Shown piece by piece: positions 14,893 to 48,375 of a stretch of 58,345 bases of DNA. The position numbers were made by a program, and so were the translations under genes. This DNA comes from Rhizobiaceae bacterium (GTDB lineage: Bacteria > Pseudomonadota > Alphaproteobacteria > Rhizobiales > Rhizobiaceae). Within the stretch, counting starts at the first letter, position 1, and every line of letters begins with the position of its first letter. The notes under the pieces were generated by a model. It was not told the origin of the DNA. It worked only from the letters and a program-made list of their open reading frames with translations, and did not search any database. Location: contig JACVCH010000024.1 in assembly GCA_016742175.1 (NCBI GenBank), forward strand, positions 1-58,345, read 5' to 3'.

Positions 14893-15060
14893 ATGCTGGA
14901 CACCCCCAAGCGCAATCAGGAACAGGAAGCGGTCGGCGAACTTCGCGTCGTGATGACCGAAGTCGAGCAGGAAGCCGTTCCGGCCTCCCTCACCGCCCTT
15001 GCCGAACAACTGGGCGACGCCGTCGCGGCCCGGATGGTCGACGACGTCGAACCGGCTTAA
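14893..15060 (+). CDS. NepR-like anti-sigma peptide (55 aa)
   Basis: 55 codons from ATG 14893, preceded by AAAGAGAG at 9 bases. The pattern LR-x2-M-x2-V-x2-E-x-VP-x2-L-x2-L-x2-QL (residues 18-40, LRVVMTEVEQEAVPASLT...) runs in register with the core of NepR, the anti-sigma factor that sequesters EcfG in the alphaproteobacterial general stress response. The usual tyrosine is methionine and the usual Pro in E-P-V-P is Ala, so this would be a divergent paralogue. No phyR or ecfG is adjacent. A 12-bp palindrome TAACATATGTTA (14864-14875) overlaps its leader. It is convergent with, and overlaps by 4 bases, a gene that has a stress promoter. Confidence 0.6.
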   Translation: MLDTPKRNQEQEAVGELRVVMTEVEQEAVPASLTALAEQLGDAVAARMVDDVEPA

Positions 15061-15464
15061 GCCGGGTCGCCGAAGCGGCCGCGGGCAAGGCCGGCGGCGA
15101 GCGCCTGCTCGGCACGCTCGTCCGGCAGGGCCTCGTCCGAATCCTGATAGGGATTGTCGTCCTCTTCCTCGAGCGATTCCAGCGGCCGGCCGCCATCGTC
15201 GATGTCGAGCGCGTCGAGCGGGATTTCCTCGTTGGCGTTGGCCGGCGTCAGCCCGTCCGGCAGTCCCGTCGAGGCGCCGATGGCCTCGATCGCCGAATTG
15301 AGGAGGCTGCGCGCTTCGTCCAGGAGGCTGGCGCGGTCGTCGCCGCCGGATGCCGAAAGCGGGAAAATTATGCGGACTTCCGCGCCATCCTCGTCCCTCA
15401 GGCTGACTTCCGCCGCGCCGCGGTCGGTGGCGGCGCGCGAGACGCGGATATCGTCGATCTTCAT
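15057..15464 (-). CDS. Acidic protein under a general-stress promoter
   Basis: 135 residues from ATG 15464 with AAGGAG in front. The first third (KIDDIRVSRAATDRGAAEVS) looks like a small beta-rich domain; the centre is helical; residues about 90-125 are strongly acidic (DALDIDDGG, LESLEEEDDN, DSDEALPDE). No signal peptide or membrane segment, and no family that I recognise. A perfect GGAAC-N16-CGTT promoter lies 27-51 bases upstream, so it is very likely induced by the EcfG-type stress sigma factor. Confidence 0.8.
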   Translation of the reverse strand: MKIDDIRVSRAATDRGAAEVSLRDEDGAEVRIIFPLSASGGDDRASLLDEARSLLNSAIEAIGASTGLPDGLTPANANEEIPLDALDIDDGGRPLESLEEEDDNPYQDSDEALPDERAEQALAAGLARGRFGDPA

Positions 15465-15490: not shown

Positions 15491-15515
15491 AACGTCCGGT
15501 CTGAAGGCCAGTTCC
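15491..15515 (-). promoter_or_regulatory. General-stress (EcfG/RpoE2-type) promoter, perfect consensus
   Basis: On the minus strand GGAAC (15511-15515), 16 bases, CGTT (15491-15494). This equals the published GGAAC-N16/17-CGTT consensus of the alphaproteobacterial general stress sigma factor. It lies in the 64-bp gap between the reductase gene and the acidic-protein gene and points at the latter. Confidence 0.8.
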
Positions 15516-39063: not shown

Positions 39064-39089
39064 GGAACGGTTGGAGCTGCGGGCGGGTT
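39064..39089 (+). promoter_or_regulatory. Candidate general-stress promoter (GGAAC-N17-GGTT)
   Basis: GGAAC (39064-39068), 17 bases, GGTT (39086-39089), 21 bases in front of the start of a 54-aa gene. One mismatch from CGTT. Confidence 0.5.
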
Positions 39090-39110
39090 GAGAGAGCAAG
39101 GAGACCCGCC

Positions 39111-39275
39111 ATGCCCCTGACCGACGCCGACCCGCGCCAGCCGAACGAGCCCGGCCGCGACCTGCCGCCGACGCCCGCCCCGCCTCCCATCGACGAGCCG
39201 GAGCCCGACCGCCTGCCGGACGAGACGCCCAACCCGAACCCGGACGAACAGAACGACCCGCCGCTTCATGTCTGA
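39111..39275 (+). CDS. Small Pro/Asp-rich protein (54 aa)
   Basis: 54 codons from ATG 39111 with a perfect AAGGAG at 7 bases. Nearly half of the residues are Pro, Asp or Glu (PLTDADPRQPNEPGRDLPPT ... DEPEPDRLPDETPNPNPDEQ), so it is disordered and acidic. No family recognised. A candidate general-stress promoter is directly upstream, and the 3-methyladenine glycosylase gene overlaps its last 8 bases, giving a two-gene stress/DNA-repair operon. Confidence 0.7.
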   Translation: MPLTDADPRQPNEPGRDLPPTPAPPPIDEPEPDRLPDETPNPNPDEQNDPPLHV

Positions 39276-39819
39276 CGGCATCGCGGCGACGTTCTTCGAC
39301 AGGCATCCGGTGGAGGTCGCGCGCGACCTGATCGGCATGGAACTCGTTGCGGGCGATGCCAGCGGGCTGATCGTCGAGACGGAGGCCTACGCCCATGACG
39401 ATCCCGCCTCGCACAGCTTTCGCGGGCCGACGCCGCGCAATGCGCCGATGTTCGGCGTTCCGGGAACGGCCTATGTCTACCGCTCCTATGGGTTGCACTG
39501 GTGCCTCAACGTGGTCTGCACACCGGGCAGCGCCGTGCTGTTGCGGGCGCTTGAGCCTTTGACGGGTATCGAAGCGATGCGCGCGCGGCGCGGGCTGGAA
39601 GCGGAGCGGTTGTTGTGCGCGGGGCCGGGACGGCTGGCGCAGGCGCTCGGCGTCGACATCGGCTGGAACGGGAATCCGCTTCATGGCGCGCTGGCGCGCA
39701 GGAGCCGGCCCGAACTGGTCGCGGGCCGGCGGATCGGCATTTCCAAGGCGGTGGATCTCGGGTGGCGCTTCGGCGCGGCGGGATCGCCTTATCTCAGCCG
39801 GTCGTTCCCGAAATTCTAA
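39268..39819 (+). CDS. DNA-3-methyladenine glycosylase (AAG/MPG family)
   Basis: 183 residues. Base-excision repair enzyme that removes alkylated purines. Catalytic glutamate region GLIVETEAYAHDDPASHSFR near residue 33, FRGPTPRNAPMFGVPGTAYV near residue 51, and YGLHWCLNVVC near residue 74 identify the family. ATG 39268 overlaps the upstream small gene. Its stop overlaps that of the convergent DUF2188 gene. Confidence 0.94.
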   Translation: MSDGIAATFFDRHPVEVARDLIGMELVAGDASGLIVETEAYAHDDPASHSFRGPTPRNAPMFGVPGTAYVYRSYGLHWCLNVVCTPGSAVLLRALEPLTGIEAMRARRGLEAERLLCAGPGRLAQALGVDIGWNGNPLHGALARRSRPELVAGRRIGISKAVDLGWRFGAAGSPYLSRSFPKF

Positions 39820-40061
39820 TCGCCGTCCTTGACCTCGACCTCGGGCCGGTCGCCGCCGCTCGCCTGTTCTTCGTGCCAGACGCCGTCGCGATCCTGGTAT
39901 TCGATGGCCTCGTCGTCGCCGCCGGGCTGCTGTTCGGCGGCGGCCCGATCAGCCGCGGCCTTGGCGGCGTCGTGGGTGCGGAAGGTCTCGGAGAAGACGT
40001 CGCCGAGCTTGTAGGCCCAGCCGCCGTCATGCTCCACCACTTCGTAGACGAGCCTCGTCAC
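39816..40061 (-). CDS. DUF2188 domain protein
   Basis: 81 residues from GTG 40061, overlapping the stop of the upstream 52-aa gene (GTGA). DUF2188 pattern: VVEHDGGWAYKLGDVFSETF, then THDAAKAAADRAAAEQ and the strand IEYQDRDGVWHEE. Function unknown; members are frequent in alphaproteobacterial stress regulons. Shares the stress-type promoter at 40269-40294 through the upstream gene. Confidence 0.82.
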   Translation of the reverse strand: MTRLVYEVVEHDGGWAYKLGDVFSETFRTHDAAKAAADRAAAEQQPGGDDEAIEYQDRDGVWHEEQASGGDRPEVEVKDGD

Positions 40062-40216
40062 GACCTGTCCCCGGCGGCGCGAGGCCGGCGGGCGCCGCGC
40101 ACGGGGCGGTCACGCATGTCGGACAGGAGTTCCCGCGAGCTGCCCTCGCCGTCGAGCGGGACATACATGCGGTAAAGCGTATAGGCGCCGAGCGCCATGA
40201 GCATCATTCGGATCAT
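40058..40216 (-). CDS. Small basic protein with N-terminal hydrophobic segment (52 aa)
   Basis: 52 codons from ATG 40216 with GGAGAGA upstream. A short hydrophobic segment (MIRMMLMALGAYTLYRMYV) precedes a basic C-terminus (RDRPVRGARRPRAAGDRS). No family recognised. First gene of a two-gene unit with DUF2188, behind a candidate stress promoter. Confidence 0.65.
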   Translation of the reverse strand: MIRMMLMALGAYTLYRMYVPLDGEGSSRELLSDMRDRPVRGARRPRAAGDRS

Positions 40217-40268
40217 CGGGACAGTCTCTCCTTCGGGGCAGGCACGCGCAGCGCGCGATCTGCCAGAC

Positions 40269-40294
40269 AACAGCCAGACCCGGCCAGTTGTTCC
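40269..40294 (-). promoter_or_regulatory. Candidate general-stress promoter (GGAAC-N17-TGTT)
   Basis: Minus strand GGAAC (40290-40294), 17 bases, TGTT (40269-40272), about 50 bases in front of the 52-aa gene and inside the 94-bp gap after TIGR02588. Confidence 0.6.
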
Positions 40295-40310
40295 CCTTCG
40301 TCCAGACGGA

Positions 40311-40706
40311 TCAGGGATCGGTGTAGGAACGGACGGAGAGTTCGAGGCCCGACGGCTCTGCATCGAAGAGAAGCGCACCCTTGCGCGTCGAGCCGGCGGG
40401 CACGTAGTCGAAGGTGACGTCGCTCTCCTCGCCGCCCTCGGCGGTGCCCCTGAGCGTGACGTCGGCGGCGGTCTTGTCGCCGGCATTGCGAAGCGTCACG
40501 CCCACGTGCCAGGCGCCGTCTGCGGCGATGACTTCGTCGACGACCGTCTCGAAGATCGGCGGGCCGTCGGTTTCGGACAATGCGGTGATCGAGAGGTAGC
40601 CGATCAGCGCGACGAGGCCGAGCGCGGAGGCGGCGCCGATGATCCACTCGACCGGGTGCGGGTCGCGGTTGACGGGGTAGCGTTCGGTCTCGTCGTCTTC
40701 GCTCAT
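40311..40706 (-). CDS. TIGR02588 family protein
   Basis: 131 residues. After a charged N-terminus, one membrane segment (about residues 19-42, HPVEWIIGAASALGLVALIG) anchors a beta-rich extracytoplasmic domain (GVTLRNAGDKTAADVTLRGT, then SDVTFDYVPAGSTRKGALL). Matches my memory of TIGR02588, a family always found next to TIGR02587. Function unknown. Starts 7 bases after the TIGR02587 stop. Confidence 0.83.
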   Translation of the reverse strand: MSEDDETERYPVNRDPHPVEWIIGAASALGLVALIGYLSITALSETDGPPIFETVVDEVIAADGAWHVGVTLRNAGDKTAADVTLRGTAEGGEESDVTFDYVPAGSTRKGALLFDAEPSGLELSVRSYTDP

Positions 40707-40713
40707 TTGCGTC

Positions 40714-41547
40714 TCACAGGATCAGCCGCGCGGCAGCGGCGCCGACGGCGGCCGGGAAGGCCAGCACGACCACGGCCATGACGACCATCTCGAAGGCGAG
40801 GCCGTCGGTGCGGCCGAACACCCAGAGCAGGAACAGCGCGATCAGCGCCGCGATCGCATAGCCGGGCAGGGTAAAGCGCAGGAGCGCGCTCCACCACGGT
40901 GTGTCCTCCGACAATTCGCTGCCTCCCTTGAACTCGACGGCGAAGACGAAGCCATGCATCGCCGCGACCGAGATCGCGACGAGCAGGATCGCGTGCCATT
41001 CGCTCATCTGGTAGGAAATCAGGATCATCTCCTCGGTCGGCGCCAGGTTGAAGCCGAGGAAGAGCGCGCCCACCGCCATCAGGAAGAGTTCGCCCGCATA
41101 GGTCTCCTCGCGGTCGCCGAGTGCGTCGTCGTCGCTGCTGTGCAACTGGCTGCGCGCGAGCAGCGCGCCGATGGCGGCCGGCACCGACTGGATCGCGATC
41201 TTGCCGGCGATCTCGTCGCCGGACATGCCGGGCGCAAGGACGCCGAGCGTCGTCAGGACGATGAGGCTGGTCACAGCGGCGATGCCGAAGGCGAAGAACG
41301 CGTCCATGGCCGATTCCCGGATCGTCCGGCGATCTTCCAGCCCGATGATGTGCGAGAGACCGACGAGGAGCGGCACGGCGACGGCAAGAAGGATCGCCAG
41401 CCGCCACGCCTCCATCGTGTAGGCGAGCTGCCACATTTCCATCGTCATCAGCATGGGCAGCGAAAAGACCAGGGCGCCGCCGATGGCGCGGCCCGTATCG
41501 CGCAGGATACCGGGGTTTGGGTGGGTGTCGCCGTTGCTGTCCGTCAT
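40714..41547 (-). CDS. TIGR02587 family membrane protein
   Basis: 277-residue integral membrane protein with about seven segments. The N-terminal GRAIGGALVFSLPMLMTMEM and the central APTEEMILISYQMSEWHAIL (near residue 168) are the recognisable stretches. Forms a conserved pair with TIGR02588. A candidate stress promoter (GGAAC-N16-GGTT) lies about 160 bases upstream, overlapping the start of rlpA on the other strand. Function unknown; the embedding in stress genes suggests a membrane-stress role. Confidence 0.83.
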   Translation of the reverse strand: MTDSNGDTHPNPGILRDTGRAIGGALVFSLPMLMTMEMWQLAYTMEAWRLAILLAVAVPLLVGLSHIIGLEDRRTIRESAMDAFFAFGIAAVTSLIVLTTLGVLAPGMSGDEIAGKIAIQSVPAAIGALLARSQLHSSDDDALGDREETYAGELFLMAVGALFLGFNLAPTEEMILISYQMSEWHAILLVAISVAAMHGFVFAVEFKGGSELSEDTPWWSALLRFTLPGYAIAALIALFLLWVFGRTDGLAFEMVVMAVVVLAFPAAVGAAAARLIL

Positions 41548-41703
41548 GGGCGGATCAGGCCAAACTGTCGCAACGGAAGCTGCGGGCGCGCGTGACCGCT
41601 CGCCCGGAAATGGCCTTGGAATCGCCCCGGGAGCCGCAAGCTGTCGTCAAATCCGGCCGTCAGTTCACACCCCCGTGAAAAACGCATCGGTAAAGAACCG
41701 ATT

Positions 41704-41728
41704 AACCGGGGTCTTCAAGAAATGTTCC
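41704..41728 (-). promoter_or_regulatory. Candidate general-stress promoter (GGAAC-N16-GGTT)
   Basis: Minus strand GGAAC (41724-41728), 16 bases, GGTT (41704-41707), pointing at TIGR02587-TIGR02588. One mismatch from CGTT and a long leader (about 150 bases). Confidence 0.45.
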
Positions 41729-42111
41729 ATTCCAAGGCGGCACGAGCCGTGCTGACTGCCTCGATCCTCGCGCTGGGCGCAGGACTTCCCGCACATGCAA
41801 ACGATGACAAGATCGAGGCATTGCAGACGATCACCGGCTCGGCTTCCTGGTATGGCGGCCAGTTTCACGGGCGCAAGACCGCCAATGGCGAGCGCTACGA
41901 CATGAACGAACTCACCGCCGCGCACAAGACGCTGCCCTTCGGCACCAAGGTGCGCGTGACCAACGAGCGCAATGGCAGGGCCGTCGTGGTGCGGATCAAC
42001 GATCGCGGGCCGTTCGTCGGCAAGCGCGTGATCGACCTGTCGCGCGGGGCGGCTCAGGCGGTCGGCATGATCAGCCAGGGCGTCGCCCAGGTGAAGCTCG
42101 AAGTCCTCTAG
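41722..42111 (+). CDS. RlpA family septal-ring lytic transglycosylase-like protein
   Basis: 129 residues. Signal peptide about residues 1-26 (cleavage after AHA), then a double-psi beta-barrel: [20 protein letters not shown] near residue 39, [20 protein letters not shown] near residue 72 and [20 protein letters not shown] near residue 92. RlpA cleaves denuded glycan strands at division sites; this short form has no SPOR domain. No lipoprotein cysteine is seen. Convergent with the exported 137-aa gene. Confidence 0.92.
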
Positions 42112-42113
42112 GA

Positions 42114-42527
42114 CTACTGCACCTCGTTCGAGGCGAGCTGCAGCGTACCATCGTCCTCCGGCGTCTCGAACATGCGCTGGACGGTGGTCATGACCAGCCA
42201 TTCGGCATAGCCGACGGCGGCGAAATTCTGTTCGCTGGCCGCGGCGAAGTCGATCTCCTCGCTCGCATCGGGCAGGAAGTTGGCGCCGACCACGCGCACG
42301 TCGCGGCGGGCGTCGGGGATTTCCTGCGCGGTGGTGGAGATCTGGACCACTTCGCGGACCGGCTGCGGCGCAGCGGGGACCGCGAGCGATGCGGCCGAAG
42401 CATCGGGGCGCATCGTGGGGATGGGGCCGAGATCAGGAAGGACGACCGCGCCGGCAATTGCGGGCAACGCGATAGCGGAAGCCAGGGCGAGGGCTGCGAG
42501 TTTCGCGAGGCGGGTCTTGGTGGTCAT
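42114..42527 (-). CDS. Exported protein under a perfect general-stress promoter
   Basis: 137 residues from ATG 42527. Signal peptide about residues 1-27 (LAALALASAIALPAIAGA), then a Pro/Ala-rich stretch and a compact region with IPDARRDVRVVGANFLPDA near residue 70 and the acidic/aromatic end WLVMTTVQRMFETPEDDG. No family recognised. The promoter GGAAC-N16-CGTT lies 57-81 bases upstream, so it is a strong candidate member of the general stress regulon, acting in the periplasm. Confidence 0.78.
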   Translation of the reverse strand: MTTKTRLAKLAALALASAIALPAIAGAVVLPDLGPIPTMRPDASAASLAVPAAPQPVREVVQISTTAQEIPDARRDVRVVGANFLPDASEEIDFAAASEQNFAAVGYAEWLVMTTVQRMFETPEDDGTLQLASNEVQ

Positions 42528-42583
42528 CGGTTCGGCTTTCCAATCGCGGCGCTGCCATCTGGCAGTCATCTTCTGGCCGGGAA

Positions 42584-42608
42584 AACGCCCGACCCATCGC
42601 GCGGTTCC
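42584..42608 (-). promoter_or_regulatory. General-stress (EcfG/RpoE2-type) promoter, perfect consensus
   Basis: Minus strand GGAAC (42604-42608), 16 bases, CGTT (42584-42587). It is in the 121-bp gap between aacS and the exported-protein gene, pointing at the latter. Confidence 0.8.
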
Positions 42609-42648
42609 GAAGAACTCACAAAGAATTTCGCCCTGACGCATTTCCAGT

Positions 42649-44649
42649 TCAGCCGGCCTTGCGCGCTGCCTCGCCATGGGCGCGGGCTTCGTCGACATAG
42701 AAGTCGAGGCATTCGGGATTGGCCATCGTCTCGCGCGAGATGATCTTCTCGATCGCGTGGCCGAGGAAGAGGCGGCGGATCGGCACTTCCTGCTTCTTGC
42801 CCGACAGGGTGCGCGGGATGGCGGGCGCCTCGACGATGCGGTCGGGCACGAAGCGGGGCGACACCGCCTGGCGGATCGCGCCCTTGATCCGCGCCGCGTC
42901 GACCGTCTCGCCCGGACGCGGTACGACAAAGAGCAGCATCTCGCTCGGTCGGCCGAGATATTCGAGGTCGATCAGCATGGAATCGAGGATTTCGGGCAGG
43001 TCCTCGACGGCGGAATAGATCTCGCTGGTGCCGATGCGAAGGCCGTGCCGGTTGATGGTCGCGTCGGAGCGGCCGTAGATGACGCAGCTTCCGTCCTCGC
43101 CGATCGACAGCCAGTCGCCGTGACGCCAGATGCCGGGGAACATGTCGAAATAGGAATCGAGGTAGCGCTTGCCGTCCGGGTCGCCCCAGAGGAACACCGG
43201 CATGGACGGGAAGGGCCGCGCGCAGACGAGGTCGCCGACCTCGCCGATGAGGCTTTCGCCGTTCTCGTTCCAGGCTTCGACGCGCGCGCCGAGCTGGCGG
43301 CACTGCATCCGGCCCGGCACCAGCGGCAGTTCGCGGTTGCCGGCGATCCAGAGGCCGCAAATGTCGGTGCCGCCGGAAATGTTCGACCACCAGATGCCTG
43401 GCCGTCCCATCCGCGCGAAGGCGTCCGTGCCCCAGTTCTGCACCGCTTCGGGCAGCGGCGAGCCGGTGGAGCCGAGCGCGCGCACGGCGGAAAGGTCGCC
43501 TTGAGCGCCCGGGTCGACGCCCGCCTTCATGCAATTGCCGAAATAGGCCGCGCCGGCGCCGAACATGGTCACGCGATTGCCGGCGACGAAGCGCCAGAGC
43601 GTGCCCCAGTCGGGCGCGTCCTTCGGGCCGCTCGGCGATCCGTCGAAAAGGCAGATCGTGGTGCCGCCGAGAAGGCCGTTGACCTGGCAGTTCCACATGA
43701 TCCAGCCGGTGCTGGAATACCAGTGGAAGCGCTCACCGAGCGAATTCGGCGCGTAGCTCGGGCCGATGTCGAGATGCTTGAGCGCAGCGTAGACGGCGAG
43801 CACGATGCCGCCATGGCTGTGGACCAGCGCCTTCGGCTTGCCGGTCGTGCCGGACGAATAGACGATCCAGAGCGGATGGTCGAAGGGCAGGAATTCCGGC
43901 GCGAAGGATGCGGTGCCGGCATCATTGCGGGCGAGCGCGTCGTCCAGCGACAGGTCGAAGGCCAGTTTCGCCGCCGCGTGGCCGATTTGCTTCAGGATCA
44001 GCTTCGGCCGGCTCGGCAGCGCCGCGCGGATTTCCTCGATCTCGTTCGAACGGTCCAGCGCGCGGCCGGCATAGAAGACGCCGTCGGCGGCGATCAGCAC
44101 CTTCGGTTCGATCTGCTGGAAACGATCGATCACCGCGCGCGTGCCCATGTCGGGCGCGCAGACGCTCCAGATCGCGCCGATGGAGGCGGTCGCCAGGAAG
44201 GCGACAACGGTATCGGGAATGTTGGGCAGGTAGGCGGCGACGCGGTCGCCCTTGCCGACGCCCATGTCGCGCAGGGTTGCCGCGAGCGAGGCGGTTCGCC
44301 GCTTCAGCTCCGCCCAAGACAGTTCGGCGCGGTTGCCGCGCTCGTCCTCGGCGACGATCGCCGGCTGGCCGGCGGCGTCTGCCGCGTCCGCATGGCGGAA
44401 GACCTGGTGCGCGTAGTTGAGCGTCGCGCCCGGGAACCAGACGGCGCCGGGCATCCGGTCCTCGGCGAGGACGGCTGAATGCGGCGTCGGGGAGTGGACG
44501 CCGTCATGCTCCCAGATCGACTGCCAGAAGGCGTCGAGGTCGTTCGTCGACCATTCCCACATCGCCTGATGGTCGGCAAAGGTCAGGCCGCGCGTCTCCT
44601 CCAACCAGTCGCGATAGATGGCCATCAGCGGTCGAAATGGTGCCGTCAC
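42649..44649 (-). CDS. aacS: Acetoacetyl-CoA synthetase
   Basis: 666-residue ANL-superfamily ligase, GTG start 44649 with GGGAGGA upstream. Activates acetoacetate to acetoacetyl-CoA, linking ketone bodies or poly-hydroxybutyrate turnover to central metabolism. The AMP-binding P-loop IVYSSGTTGKPKALVHSHGG is near residue 270; N-terminal WFPGATLNYAHQVF and C-terminal SGKKQEVPIRRLFLG (catalytic lysine region) match AacS and not acetyl-CoA synthetase. Length is normal for the family. Monocistronic. Confidence 0.94.
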   Translation of the reverse strand: MTAPFRPLMAIYRDWLEETRGLTFADHQAMWEWSTNDLDAFWQSIWEHDGVHSPTPHSAVLAEDRMPGAVWFPGATLNYAHQVFRHADAADAAGQPAIVAEDERGNRAELSWAELKRRTASLAATLRDMGVGKGDRVAAYLPNIPDTVVAFLATASIGAIWSVCAPDMGTRAVIDRFQQIEPKVLIAADGVFYAGRALDRSNEIEEIRAALPSRPKLILKQIGHAAAKLAFDLSLDDALARNDAGTASFAPEFLPFDHPLWIVYSSGTTGKPKALVHSHGGIVLAVYAALKHLDIGPSYAPNSLGERFHWYSSTGWIMWNCQVNGLLGGTTICLFDGSPSGPKDAPDWGTLWRFVAGNRVTMFGAGAAYFGNCMKAGVDPGAQGDLSAVRALGSTGSPLPEAVQNWGTDAFARMGRPGIWWSNISGGTDICGLWIAGNRELPLVPGRMQCRQLGARVEAWNENGESLIGEVGDLVCARPFPSMPVFLWGDPDGKRYLDSYFDMFPGIWRHGDWLSIGEDGSCVIYGRSDATINRHGLRIGTSEIYSAVEDLPEILDSMLIDLEYLGRPSEMLLFVVPRPGETVDAARIKGAIRQAVSPRFVPDRIVEAPAIPRTLSGKKQEVPIRRLFLGHAIEKIISRETMANPECLDFYVDEARAHGEAARKAG

Positions 44650-44745
44650 GATCGTCCTCCCTGAACGGGGCGGAGCTTACGAAGGCGACCTGGATTTTGC
44701 CAGAGCCCCGGGCGAAGGACGCGCCTGAAAATTAGCAATCCGGCG

Positions 44746-44770
44746 GGAACGATTGCAGCGCTCGAACATT
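44746..44770 (+). promoter_or_regulatory. Weak general-stress promoter match (GGAAC-N16-CATT)
   Basis: GGAAC (44746-44750), 16 bases, CATT (44767-44770), about 70 bases in front of the sigma-factor gene. It fits the relaxed GGAAC-N18/19-TT form and could give autoregulation. Confidence 0.35.
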
Positions 44771-44839
44771 CCTGCCCGTGGGTTCCGCTCGCGCGCGGGA
44801 CTCTTTACGGAAATGCTTTCGATCAGACGGAGCCAGCGA

Positions 44840-45439
44840 ATGCCGACAGCGGTTGGTGGACTTGACCGATCGTCGGATGCGTCACGCTCGGACCAGTCAC
44901 GCAGCGAGGTCGTGAACCTCATCCCGGCGCTGCGCGCCTTCGCTCGCACCTTCCATCGCGACGTCGGCGATGCAGACGACCTGGTCCAGGAAACGCTGAC
45001 CAAGGCGATCGCCAACATCCACCAGTTCCAGCCGGGCACGGCGATGAAATCGTGGCTGTTCACGATCATGCGCAACAGCTTCTATACCAAGATCCGCAAG
45101 ACCAGCCGCGAGGCGCCGGCACTCGCTGACGACGCCGCCGGCCGGCCGGTCGTGCTCGCCACGCAGGAATGGTCTGCGCGCGGGCACGAGATCCGCGAGG
45201 CGCTGGGACGGCTGCCGGAGCAGCAGCGCGAGGTGATCATGCTGATCGGCGTGCTCGGCGTCTCCTACGAGGAGGCCGCCGAGATCTGCGGCTGCGCGAT
45301 GGGGACGATCAAGAGCCGTCTCAATCGGGCGCGTGCGCGCCTGCTCGACGAGATCGGGGAGACGGATGCGCGCGCATCGGTGGAGGCGGATACCTATCTC
45401 CCCTCGACCAGCGCGGCCAAGGCGCCGACCTACGGCTGA
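44840..45439 (+). CDS. ECF sigma factor, EcfG-like
   Basis: 199 residues from ATG 44840, chosen for GGAG at 7 bases (ATG 44813 possible). Sigma region 2 reads DVGDADDLVQETLTKAIANI and GTAMKSWLFTIMRNSFYTKI (about residues 48-90), very like the EcfG/SigT stress sigma factors; region 4 is LPEQQREVIMLIGVLGVSYEEAAEICGC... with SRLNRARARL. Unlike canonical ecfG it is not next to nepR or phyR, so it may be a paralogue. Several GGAAC-N16/17-NGTT promoters lie within 6 kb on either side. Confidence 0.87.
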   Translation: MPTAVGGLDRSSDASRSDQSRSEVVNLIPALRAFARTFHRDVGDADDLVQETLTKAIANIHQFQPGTAMKSWLFTIMRNSFYTKIRKTSREAPALADDAAGRPVVLATQEWSARGHEIREALGRLPEQQREVIMLIGVLGVSYEEAAEICGCAMGTIKSRLNRARARLLDEIGETDARASVEADTYLPSTSAAKAPTYG

Positions 45440-45454
45440 AGATTAAAAGCCGGC

Positions 45455-46252
45455 TTACTTCAGGCTGGGCGCGGCGGCAGCAGCGGCCTCTTGCGCGCGC
45501 GGGGCCCCCGTCTTGCGGCCGGGGGCGACCGATTCGAGCCCGAGATAGGCCGGATTGAACTCGGCGACCTCCGCCAGGCCCTGCCAGTCGAGAATCTCGA
45601 TGCGATAGTTGAGCCAAGCGATGACCCCGTCGCGCCGCAATTCCTTGAGGACCCGGTTGACGTGAACCGGCGACATGCCCAGCACGTCGGCGAGTTCGTT
45701 CTGCGTCAACGGCAGATGGAAAGCCGAAGCCTCGCTGCGCCCGACTGCGGCAAGGCGCACCATCAGTTCGCAAAAGAGATGCGCCATCTGGCCCTTGGCC
45801 GAGCGGCGGCCCATGGACACCAGCCATTCGCGCTGGATCGCGGCCTCGATCGAGGTCTCGGTCCACAGGAGGAACGTCGCCGCGCGGTCGGCCTCGCAGA
45901 CGCGTCGCAACTGCTCGTGCTCGATCGTGACGGCCCGGCAGGCGGTCACTGCGACGACGCCGAAGTCCCGGCGCGGCACGAGAAAGCTGGAGAGGTCGAG
46001 AAAGTCGCCGGGAACCAGAAGCGTGGTGATCTGGCGACGGCCGGTGGACAGGAGCTTGTAGCGGGCGGCGAGCCCGTCCGTCAGAAGCGTCACGTTGGCC
46101 GAGCGGTCGCCCTCGCGCGTCAGGTCCTGATCCTGGCTGAACTGACGATCGCGCAATCCCAATTGCGCGAGGCCGGTAACCGGCTGGCCGTCATGGCCGC
46201 GCCGGGCCAATTTCAAAAGAAAAGCATCGAGCAAAATGAGACCCGGCCGCAC
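45455..46252 (-). CDS. Crp/Fnr-family transcriptional regulator
   Basis: 265 residues from GTG 46252 (AGGAG at 9 bases). Cyclic-nucleotide-binding-type beta-barrel (about residues 30-145) with no FNR cysteine cluster, then a Crp-type winged helix: LPLTQNELADVLGMSPVHVNRVLKELRRDG near residue 180. An Ala-rich tail ends the protein. Part of the rhizobial group of short-signal Crp-like proteins of unknown ligand. Divergent from a second Crp-like gene across 287 bp; convergent with the sigma-factor gene. Confidence 0.9.
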   Translation of the reverse strand: MRPGLILLDAFLLKLARRGHDGQPVTGLAQLGLRDRQFSQDQDLTREGDRSANVTLLTDGLAARYKLLSTGRRQITTLLVPGDFLDLSSFLVPRRDFGVVAVTACRAVTIEHEQLRRVCEADRAATFLLWTETSIEAAIQREWLVSMGRRSAKGQMAHLFCELMVRLAAVGRSEASAFHLPLTQNELADVLGMSPVHVNRVLKELRRDGVIAWLNYRIEILDWQGLAEVAEFNPAYLGLESVAPGRKTGAPRAQEAAAAAAPSLK

Positions 46253-46539
46253 AGAATCAAGGCTCCTGCGACGTGATTGCGCAGGAAAAGCCTTTCCGCT
46301 TTAGCGAAGTCTGATAGGCCCGGCTTTTACATTTGTTAGTCAATACTCAACTATTAGGCAGTTTCCCAAACATAGGCTAAAGTCGTACAGATGAGTGGCG
46401 CGTCAGACACAGCGCCGACCACTGTGCCGCCCAGAAAATTGGCGCTTACGGCGAAATCATCCCGTTGTCCGCAAACGAACTTTTTCGTTGCGGCGACGTT
46501 TTAGCATCTTGCGATACACGAGCCATTCGGAGACCGACC

Positions 46540-47295
46540 ATGGACGCGCTGATCCGCAAGCTCGAACATTTCACGCAGTTCACCGACGAGGAGCGGCAGG
46601 CGCTTGCGAGCTTGTCCGACCTGCCGGTCGTCGTCGGCCCGCGCCAGGACATCATCCGCGAGGGCGACAACCCGACCGGGGTCAACCTCATCGTCGAGGG
46701 CTATGCGATCCGCTACAAGGCGCTTCCCGACGGGCGGCGGCAGATTCTCGGCTATTTCGTCTCCGGTGACATCTGCGATCTGCGCGTCTTCGTCTTGAAG
46801 CGCATGGACCATTCGATTGCCGCGCTGACGCCGGTCGCGGTGCGGGTCATCTCCGAAAAGCGCATCCTCGAGATGACCGACCGCTATCCGCGGATCATGC
46901 GGGCGCTGTGGTGGACGACGCTGGTGGAGGAATCGATCAGCCGCGAATGGCTCCTGAGCATGGGGCAGCGCACCGCGGCCGAGCGCATCGCGCATCTCTT
47001 CTGCGAGATCTACTACCGGGCGCGCATCGTCGACCTCGTCGAGGGGCACCGCGTGGCGCTGCCGCTGCGCCAGACGGACCTCGCCGAGATGACCGGGCTG
47101 TCGGTCGTCCACGTCAACCGGGTGCTGCAGGACCTGCGCAAGCAGGGGCTCATCACCTTCGACGGGCAGGTGCTGACGATCCTCAGCCCCGAAAAACTCG
47201 AGGCGTTCGCACTGTTCGACCCGCTTTATCTCCACATGGACGAGGGCAAGGGGACCGTCACGCGGACGGCGCCCGTCACGGCCCGCGCGGGGTAG
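46540..47295 (+). CDS. Crp/Fnr-family transcriptional regulator (second)
   Basis: 251 residues from ATG 46540 (CGGAG upstream). Same architecture as its divergent neighbour, with which it shares IREWLLSMGxRxA and VHVNRVLxDLR-type stretches: sensor barrel REGDNPTGVNLIVEGYAIRYKALPDGRRQI, then DNA-binding helix LRQTDLAEMTGLSVVHVNRVLQDLRKQGLI near residue 185. No FNR cysteines. The next gene's stress promoter begins 22 bases after its stop. Confidence 0.9.
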   Translation: MDALIRKLEHFTQFTDEERQALASLSDLPVVVGPRQDIIREGDNPTGVNLIVEGYAIRYKALPDGRRQILGYFVSGDICDLRVFVLKRMDHSIAALTPVAVRVISEKRILEMTDRYPRIMRALWWTTLVEESISREWLLSMGQRTAAERIAHLFCEIYYRARIVDLVEGHRVALPLRQTDLAEMTGLSVVHVNRVLQDLRKQGLITFDGQVLTILSPEKLEAFALFDPLYLHMDEGKGTVTRTAPVTARAG

Positions 47296-47316
47296 TGGCG
47301 ATTTTGTGGCCGTCAC

Positions 47317-47341
47317 GGAACGAAGGTCACATTCGCGTGTT
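47317..47341 (+). promoter_or_regulatory. Candidate general-stress promoter (GGAAC-N16-TGTT)
   Basis: GGAAC (47317-47321), 16 bases, TGTT (47338-47341), 36 bases in front of the 24-aa gene; one mismatch from CGTT. Confidence 0.65.
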
Positions 47342-47376: not shown

Positions 47377-47451
47377 ATGCACGGCATCATCTACCTCGTC
47401 GGCCTCGTCGTGGTCGTTCTGTTTCTTCTGTCCCTTCTCGGCCTGCGCTAA
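47377..47451 (+). CDS. Tiny transmembrane peptide (24 aa)
   Basis: 24 codons from ATG 47377 with GGGAG upstream. The whole peptide after MHG is one membrane helix (IIYLVGLVVVVLFLLSLLGL) ending in a single arginine. The clean ribosome-binding site, stop and position 21 bases before a membrane-protein gene, behind a stress promoter, make it a credible gene. Possibly a regulator or partner of the downstream membrane protein. Confidence 0.62.
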   Translation: MHGIIYLVGLVVVVLFLLSLLGLR

Positions 47452-47472
47452 GCGCCCACTCGGAGACGTTCC

Positions 47473-48375
47473 ATGAATCCTGACTACGGCGCGGCGCCGA
47501 CGCCGCCCGTCGGTGCGACCGCAATCGCGACCGGCGACGAGAAGTCCTATGTCGACTGGGCCGCGATCATCGGCGGCACGGTCCTTGCCTCGGCCATTTC
47601 CTTCGTCCTGCTCGCCTTCGGCTCGGCCCTCGGCCTGACCTTCAGCTCGGCCTATGAGGGCTCGGGCATGTCGCTGGTCGGTTTCGCCATCGCCGCCGCG
47701 CTGTGGCTCCTATGGGTGCAGGTCTCGTCCTTCATGGCGGGCGGCTACCTGACGGGGCGCCTTCGCCGCCGCAACTATGACGCGACCGAGGACGAGTCCG
47801 ACATTCGCGACGGTTCGCACGGCCTGCTTGTCTGGGCGCTCGGCGTGCTCGTCGGTGCTGTCCTGGCCTTCTTCAGTGCATCGGCCGTTCTGGGCTCCGC
47901 AACCAACGCCGTCGGCAATGCCGTCGGCGGTGCGGCTTCCGGGGCTGCGACGCTGGTCGAGGAGATCGATCCGAACGCACTTCTGACCGACCGCCTCCTG
48001 CGTCCGGGCACCGCCACCGACACCGCCAATGAAGAGCTGCGCTCTGAGGTCGGCCGCATCCTCGTCACCGCCGTCACCGAAGGCGAACTGGCCGAAGCTG
48101 ACCGGGCCTATCTCGCCAGCGTCGTCGCCGCCCGCACGGGCGTCGAGGAAGCCGAGGCGCAGGCCCGCGTCGACGAGGTCTGGGCCCAGGCGCAGGAACT
48201 CGAAGCGACGGCCCGCGAGACCGCCGACCAGGCCCGCCGCGTCGGCATGATCGCCGCCTTCATCACCGCCGCATCGCTGCTGATCTCCGCCGTCGCCGCC
48301 TATTTCGGCGCCGTCATGGGTGGCAATCACCGCGACAAGCACACCGTGATTCAAGGCTGGGTCCGTCCCTGGTAA
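47473..48375 (+). CDS. Uncharacterised multi-span membrane protein, stress cluster
   Basis: 300 residues. N-terminal hydrophobic pair beginning VDWAAIIGGTVLASAISFVL (about residues 28-75), then SSFMAGGYLTGRLRRRNYDA and more segments near residues 115-160; a helical extramembrane region with a cluster of Glu/Ala heptads (VEEAEAQARVDEVWAQAQEL) near residue 220 precedes a final membrane segment and the end IQGWVRPW. Rhizobial homologues are often labelled PhnA-like without experimental basis. Likely co-transcribed with the 24-aa peptide from the stress promoter. Confidence 0.8.
   Translation: MNPDYGAAPTPPVGATAIATGDEKSYVDWAAIIGGTVLASAISFVLLAFGSALGLTFSSAYEGSGMSLVGFAIAAALWLLWVQVSSFMAGGYLTGRLRRRNYDATEDESDIRDGSHGLLVWALGVLVGAVLAFFSASAVLGSATNAVGNAVGGAASGAATLVEEIDPNALLTDRLLRPGTATDTANEELRSEVGRILVTAVTEGELAEADRAYLASVVAARTGVEEAEAQARVDEVWAQAQELEATARETADQARRVGMIAAFITAASLLISAVAAYFGAVMGGNHRDKHTVIQGWVRPW

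Follow-up and report, generated by a model that had tools for sequence, protein, structure and literature searches.

Contig JACVCH010000024.1 of Rhizobiaceae bacterium GCA_016742175.1 (C3 in a genome of 4.30 Mb) is analysed here as a window of 58,345 nucleotides. It carries, at 44840..45439 on the forward strand, a gene for an EcfG-type extracytoplasmic function (ECF) sigma factor with regions 2 and 4 (PF04542, PF08281). The initial annotation had listed five promoter-like strings of the form GGAAC-N16/17-NGTT at 39064, 40269, 41704, 42584 and 47317, placed each in an intergenic gap facing an unexplained gene, and read the whole as a general-stress-response cluster with EcfG/RpoE2 promoters. 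All five strings are present at these coordinates and on the strands given, and each is directed at the gene named. The sigma gene does stand among conserved promoter-like sites, whose targets are small or uncharacterised genes. Four of the strings are wholly intergenic, in a gene set called here that leaves 12.7% of the stretch between genes, but the one at 41704 shares seven bases with the start of an rlpA-like gene. A sixth site had been overlooked, that of the sigma gene itself, GGAAC-N16-CATT at 44746..44770 (+).

The first site, GGAAC-N17-GGTT at 39064..39089 (+), precedes an acidic, proline-rich open reading frame (ORF) of 54 amino acids (39111..39275, +; no Pfam or NCBIfam match), which overlaps a methylpurine-DNA glycosylase gene (39268..39819, +; PF02245, 2.9e-57). 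GGAAC-N17-TGTT at 40269..40294 (-) faces a 52-amino-acid ORF without a Pfam or NCBIfam family (40058..40216, -) and the gene for a DUF2188 protein (39816..40061, -; PF09954, 1.9e-5, 25.2 bits at a cut-off of 22). GGAAC-N16-GGTT at 41704..41728 (-) is directed at a TIGR02587/DUF2391 membrane protein (40714..41547, -; TIGR02587 1.9e-81, above its cut-off; PF09622 4.9e-82) and a TIGR02588-like protein (40311..40706, -) whose match, 6.5e-20 at 71.3 bits, lies below the curated 95-bit cut-off. The only CGTT form among the five, GGAAC-N16-CGTT at 42584..42608 (-), precedes a putative exported protein of 137 amino acids (42114..42527, -) with no Pfam or NCBIfam family and, by eye, a signal-like start. 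Finally, GGAAC-N16-TGTT at 47317..47341 (+) faces a hydrophobic 24-amino-acid ORF that is conserved in both congeners compared (47378..47452, +) and a 300-amino-acid protein (47473..48375, +) without a Pfam or NCBIfam match, judged by eye to be a membrane protein. Between the sigma gene and this last site lie two Crp/Fnr-type regulators (45455-47295). In Aliihoeflea sp. 2WW (L014, 11545-13779) a 744-amino-acid ORF stands between the two regulators and resembles, by eye, a 759-amino-acid ORF near the A. aestuarii sigma.

The congeners compared were Aliihoeflea sp. 2WW and genome G060, both of the same genus. All six sites are present in both, and at the sites of the 54-amino-acid ORF and of the sigma gene the spacer is altered while both boxes are retained. 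The block around the 41704 site, which runs into the first bases of the divergent rlpA-like gene, is near-identical as a whole in three congeners, beyond what a promoter alone needs. The window contains seven GGAAC-N16/17-NGTT matches against 2.17 in shuffled sequence, with at least seven in 0 of 100 shuffles. The strict CGTT form is not above chance (2 against 0.93; 25 of 100 shuffles reach 2). The density that would have spoken against the initial annotation is not seen, the genome holding about 37 matches per Mb against five in 8.3 kb.

When all 161 places in the genome were listed and scanned in windows of 8.3 kb, at least five sites fell together only on contigs C32, C14 and C3. These three clusters coincide with the three EcfG-type sigma genes that a search with the window's sigma ranks closest in its own genome: the window's gene, C14:150517 (67% identity) and C32:44570 (48%), followed by five weaker sigma matches. 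Could such clustering be chance, or follow from the composition of a GC-rich genome? Over the genome as a whole the excess is small, 161 matches against 148 for a reversed control pattern. In 5000 trials of uniform random placement a cluster of five was reached in 3.9%, six in 0.28% and seven in none, so that the window's count alone is modest. On C24, the contig ranked fourth, three of the four sites lie within called genes, and a sigma gene was not seen. Against this stand the retention of all six sites by both congeners and, around homologous sigmas, a sharp peak at spacers of 16/17 described below; given correct congener alignments, the peak and the footprints already disfavour chance or composition, which we regard as a very improbable explanation.

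The general-stress-response core itself lies elsewhere. The single Pfam NepR match in the genome is at C32:44436, the gene divergent to it holds the best PhyR sigma-domain match (C32:43948), and a gene for an HWE histidine kinase is nearby; the phyR-nepR-ecfG core is thus placed on C32 and not in the window. A stress cluster at the window thus stands as an EcfG-type sigma amid conserved sites, but not as the core. A similar division applies to the reading of the strings as EcfG/RpoE2 promoters: the GGAAC box and the 16/17 spacer agree, but most sites are not CGTT. CGTT accounts for 6 of 8 sites on C32, 1 of 9 on C14 and 1 of 5 in the window. The C14 region (142326-153406; L010, L011) is a lower-GC stretch (57-62%) in which few genes were called. 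It carries a second non-canonical EcfG gene, nine promoter-like sites and DUF892, DUF421, DUF305 and PRC-barrel genes.

The window's sigma shares with the canonical EcfG/NepR/PhyR system its EcfG (ECF15) sequence kinship, the GGAAC -35 box and the 16/17 spacer, and its closest solved relative is 5uxx_A, an entry that includes NepR as well. It differs in that tblastn of the neighbourhood found no nepR or phyR beside its gene, and in that the first base of the -10 box is unconstrained near the sigmas of its clade, CGTT making up 85 of 319 sites. An 86-row tree assigns it to a starred group of 33 rows, none of which has a nepR or phyR neighbour by tblastn. Of the 29 rows with a nepR- or phyR-linked label, 23 come together in another starred group. 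In a 35-row tree it joins the sigmas of Rhizobium etli p42f and Sinorhizobium meliloti SM11 in a 17-row clade with support 98/97, the placement of these two being less sure because both have long branches. The R. etli p42f gene used is presumably PF00052, an identity taken from its match because the record carries newer tags. As judged from sequence, the window's sigma is a non-canonical EcfG paralogue of the subgroup described in PMC3892343.

Non-CGTT sites are typical of this clade. When spacings of k=8-26 are scanned for GGAAC-Nk-NGTT, k=16/17 gives the sole peak, with clade sigmas as with canonical ones. With no first base presupposed, the -10 words enriched around the clade's sigmas include GGTT, TGTT, CGTT, AGTT and CATT and overlapping words such as GTTC; around canonical EcfG one word, CGTT, greatly exceeds all others. 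Duplicates are included in both word counts. Base frequencies were taken from deduplicated sets of 61 clade and 47 canonical loci, from which five duplicates and L042 and L045 had been removed; the latter two, part of a first clade set of 33 loci and at the clade edge or outside it by tree, are still in the spacing scan and the word counts. By tblastn, a link to nepR or phyR exists for all 28 canonical loci from genome contigs, though weak for some, and for 19 of the 20 from the family; L164, on a short contig, was counted as canonical by match alone. The first -10 base at the 319 clade sites is A in 48, C in 85, G in 108 and T in 78. These proportions show no difference from those at 22 other spacings (p=0.09), whereas the sites themselves are far more numerous than the ~41 those spacings predict. 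By comparison, C occupies this position in 252 of 313 canonical sites. Both neighbourhoods were available in 21 genomes, two of which were set aside as having no site near the clade sigma; in all 19 comparable genomes the fraction of C is lower near the clade sigma, with a pooled odds ratio of ~21. The window's own genome entered this test as 2 C and 13 other, and a recount gives 2 and 12, in the same direction. In R. etli p42f, outside the counted sets, the 15 kb around the clade sigma contain 11 sites (two form one inverted pair), of which 1 is CGTT.

The sigma genes have sites of their own too. Within 400 bases upstream, 53 of 61 clade loci have a site, CATT in 38 of 61, and the reversed pattern occurs in 1 of 61; for canonical EcfG a site is present in 40 of 47 loci and CGTT in 32 of 47. 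The rpoE5 gene of S. meliloti has its transcription start mapped to a GGAAC-N16-CATT promoter and is activated by RpoE2 (PMC6180224).

Taken together, we consider it reasonably probable that a non-canonical, EcfG2-type sigma has its neighbourhood regulon in this stretch, with a relay from canonical EcfG, NGTT promoters and possibly a NepR-like brake. Computation establishes the sites with their conservation, the clade, the difference between promoters and the co-occurrence of NepR-like genes. Canonical EcfG, once freed from NepR by PhyR, would most likely open the conserved GGAAC-N16-CATT promoter of the sigma gene; experimental support for this step comes from S. meliloti alone, in the rpoE5 work of PMC6180224. 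The non-canonical sigma would then transcribe nearby stress genes from GGAAC-N16/17-NGTT, needing GTT and dispensing with the preceding C. We infer this second step, and that the window's sigma itself reads NGTT sites, from the difference between the two promoter sets in paired genomes and from R. etli, where each sigma, EcfG2 included, prefers its own promoter and the EcfG1 motif occurs in 1 of 19 EcfG2-dependent units (PMC3892343). A small NepR-like protein, encoded 30 kb away here and elsewhere often convergent with the sigma gene, may restrain the sigma; such a brake is a lead.

Several observations pull the other way. The sites might be ordinary, weaker targets of canonical EcfG, and the extra sigma might ride along in the island and add little. 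Both Sphingopyxis EcfGs use TGTT, CATT and GGTT boxes in vitro, CGTT yielding most (PMC7083833), the Methylobacterium EcfG consensus is C/GGTT (PMC4814048), and overexpression of S. meliloti RpoE5 raised only one gene (PMC6180224); because of the Sphingopyxis and Methylobacterium results, a canonical-type EcfG could read NGTT sites. One window site is CGTT, and of 14 genomes scored without a clade sigma, 3 still have a site at TIGR02587. Upstream of R. etli katG, EcfG2-dependent in print, no such site is present, and it failed as a positive control. The 34 family clade loci were assigned by their better match to the window's sigma and not by tree, and sites in related genomes are not independent. 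A structural reason for the relaxed base may be hinted at by position 68 of the window's sigma. There an alignment places the asparagine that contacts a flipped T in a sigma-H structure (PMC6411747), and the residue is asparagine in 97% of canonical rows but arginine or serine in 76% of clade rows (L091 excluded for a bad reading frame). As an explanation this was rejected, no single residue tracking the C fraction inside the clade. Against the weaker-target explanation, C is kept at ~80% around canonical EcfG in the very genomes in which it stands at background around the clade sigma. In addition, TIGR02587 more often has an NGTT or CATT site on the right strand in its 400 upstream bases where a clade sigma is present (11 of 18 genomes, against the 3 of 14; p=0.036). 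On balance, we hold that explanation to be rather unlikely and prefer the EcfG2-type regulon.

The candidate brake belongs to a family of NepR-like proteins of 50-65 amino acids with a VP-x-RL core. At 22 of 69 loci, two of them the same record, a member lies no more than 1.5 kb from the clade sigma. In 15 of the 22 the gene is convergent with the sigma gene, 39-63 bases downstream. The window's copy, a 55-amino-acid protein without a Pfam match (14893..15060, +), was found by the profile at E 4.4e-6 in its own genome and is conserved in G060; its link to the window's sigma is putative. Convergent with the C14 sigma gene is an ORF whose NepR-like match is very weak. The first sighting belongs to PMC6180224, where such an ORF was already noted beside rpoE5.

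These small proteins could instead be unrelated helical proteins, the sigma being regulated by transcription only. Their Pfam scores fall below the cut-off, with a weak NepR match in 3 of 7 tested and none in the other 4, and a PDB search gave matches no better than chance. The stretches searched in R. etli and R. tropici gave no NepR-like match. The window's copy is not adjacent to the sigma gene, and no GGAAC promoter was seen before it. On the other side, the NepR-like profile matches the canonical NepR profile (93.8%, E 1.7e-7), and the ORF by rpoE5 was noted independently. At E<=1e-5 the profile finds a match in 22 genomes out of 151, and all but one of the 22 belong to the 33 clade-sigma genomes (a sigma score of at least 156 bits among the matches listed); genomes with two weaker sigma matches, G018, G071 and G075 among them, may hold unrecognised clade members. 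With the nine genomes that supplied profile rows excluded, a match occurs in 12 of 24 clade-sigma genomes against 1 of 118 others, and of 35 weaker profile matches 18 adjoin an EcfG match, the expected place of canonical nepR, again among the matches listed. Unrelated helical proteins seem to us unlikely, slightly less so than the weaker-target explanation.

In the window (14893-15464) the NepR-like gene is convergent with a 135-amino-acid gene bearing a CGTT promoter-like site; this site (15491-15515) is not claimed, the 135-amino-acid stretch having no alignment in G060. In Stappia sp. TSB10P1A (L022), a single open frame situated ~9.4 kb upstream of its sigma gene runs from a proline-rich stretch, similar to the window's 54-amino-acid ORF, into a NepR-like stretch.

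The families that recur near clade sigmas include Ku, DUF892, BON, CBS, DUF4142, glycosyltransferase family 20, DUF2188 and TIGR02587. On general grounds, several of these would serve stress survival.

Besides the canonical system, three known ones are close to the one proposed here. R. etli EcfG2, in the same clade by tree, is plasmid-borne and has a published, partly separate stress regulon, and the motif search for its targets returned none (PMC3892343). The present analysis proposes a candidate promoter class that this search did not return, and a NepR-like partner, none of which was found near the R. etli gene. S. meliloti RpoE5, of the same clade in strain SM11, has the same GGAAC-N16-CATT promoter and a convergent NepR-like ORF, and PMC6180224 gives one overexpression target where the window has five further conserved sites. 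Methylobacterium has several EcfG copies, as here, with the difference that they are closely related among themselves and are said to read similar promoters (PMC4814048). A published statement of the NGTT pattern for these sigmas was not found in a literature search that had most subscription papers outside it.

More widely, and with less confidence than for the window, non-canonical EcfGs of Hyphomicrobiales might form a layered stress module, with a CATT relay promoter, an NGTT regulon and, in many members, an often-convergent NepR-like anti-sigma. The counts supply a concrete, testable promoter pattern and a relay order for non-canonical EcfG. On sequence grounds, they suggest that a spare EcfG copy has its own looser start signal, previously undefined, in a conserved stress island. 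If this is true, the regulons of extra stress sigmas would become predictable in many bacteria, both soil-dwelling and symbiotic, and it would hint at why many genomes keep a second EcfG copy.

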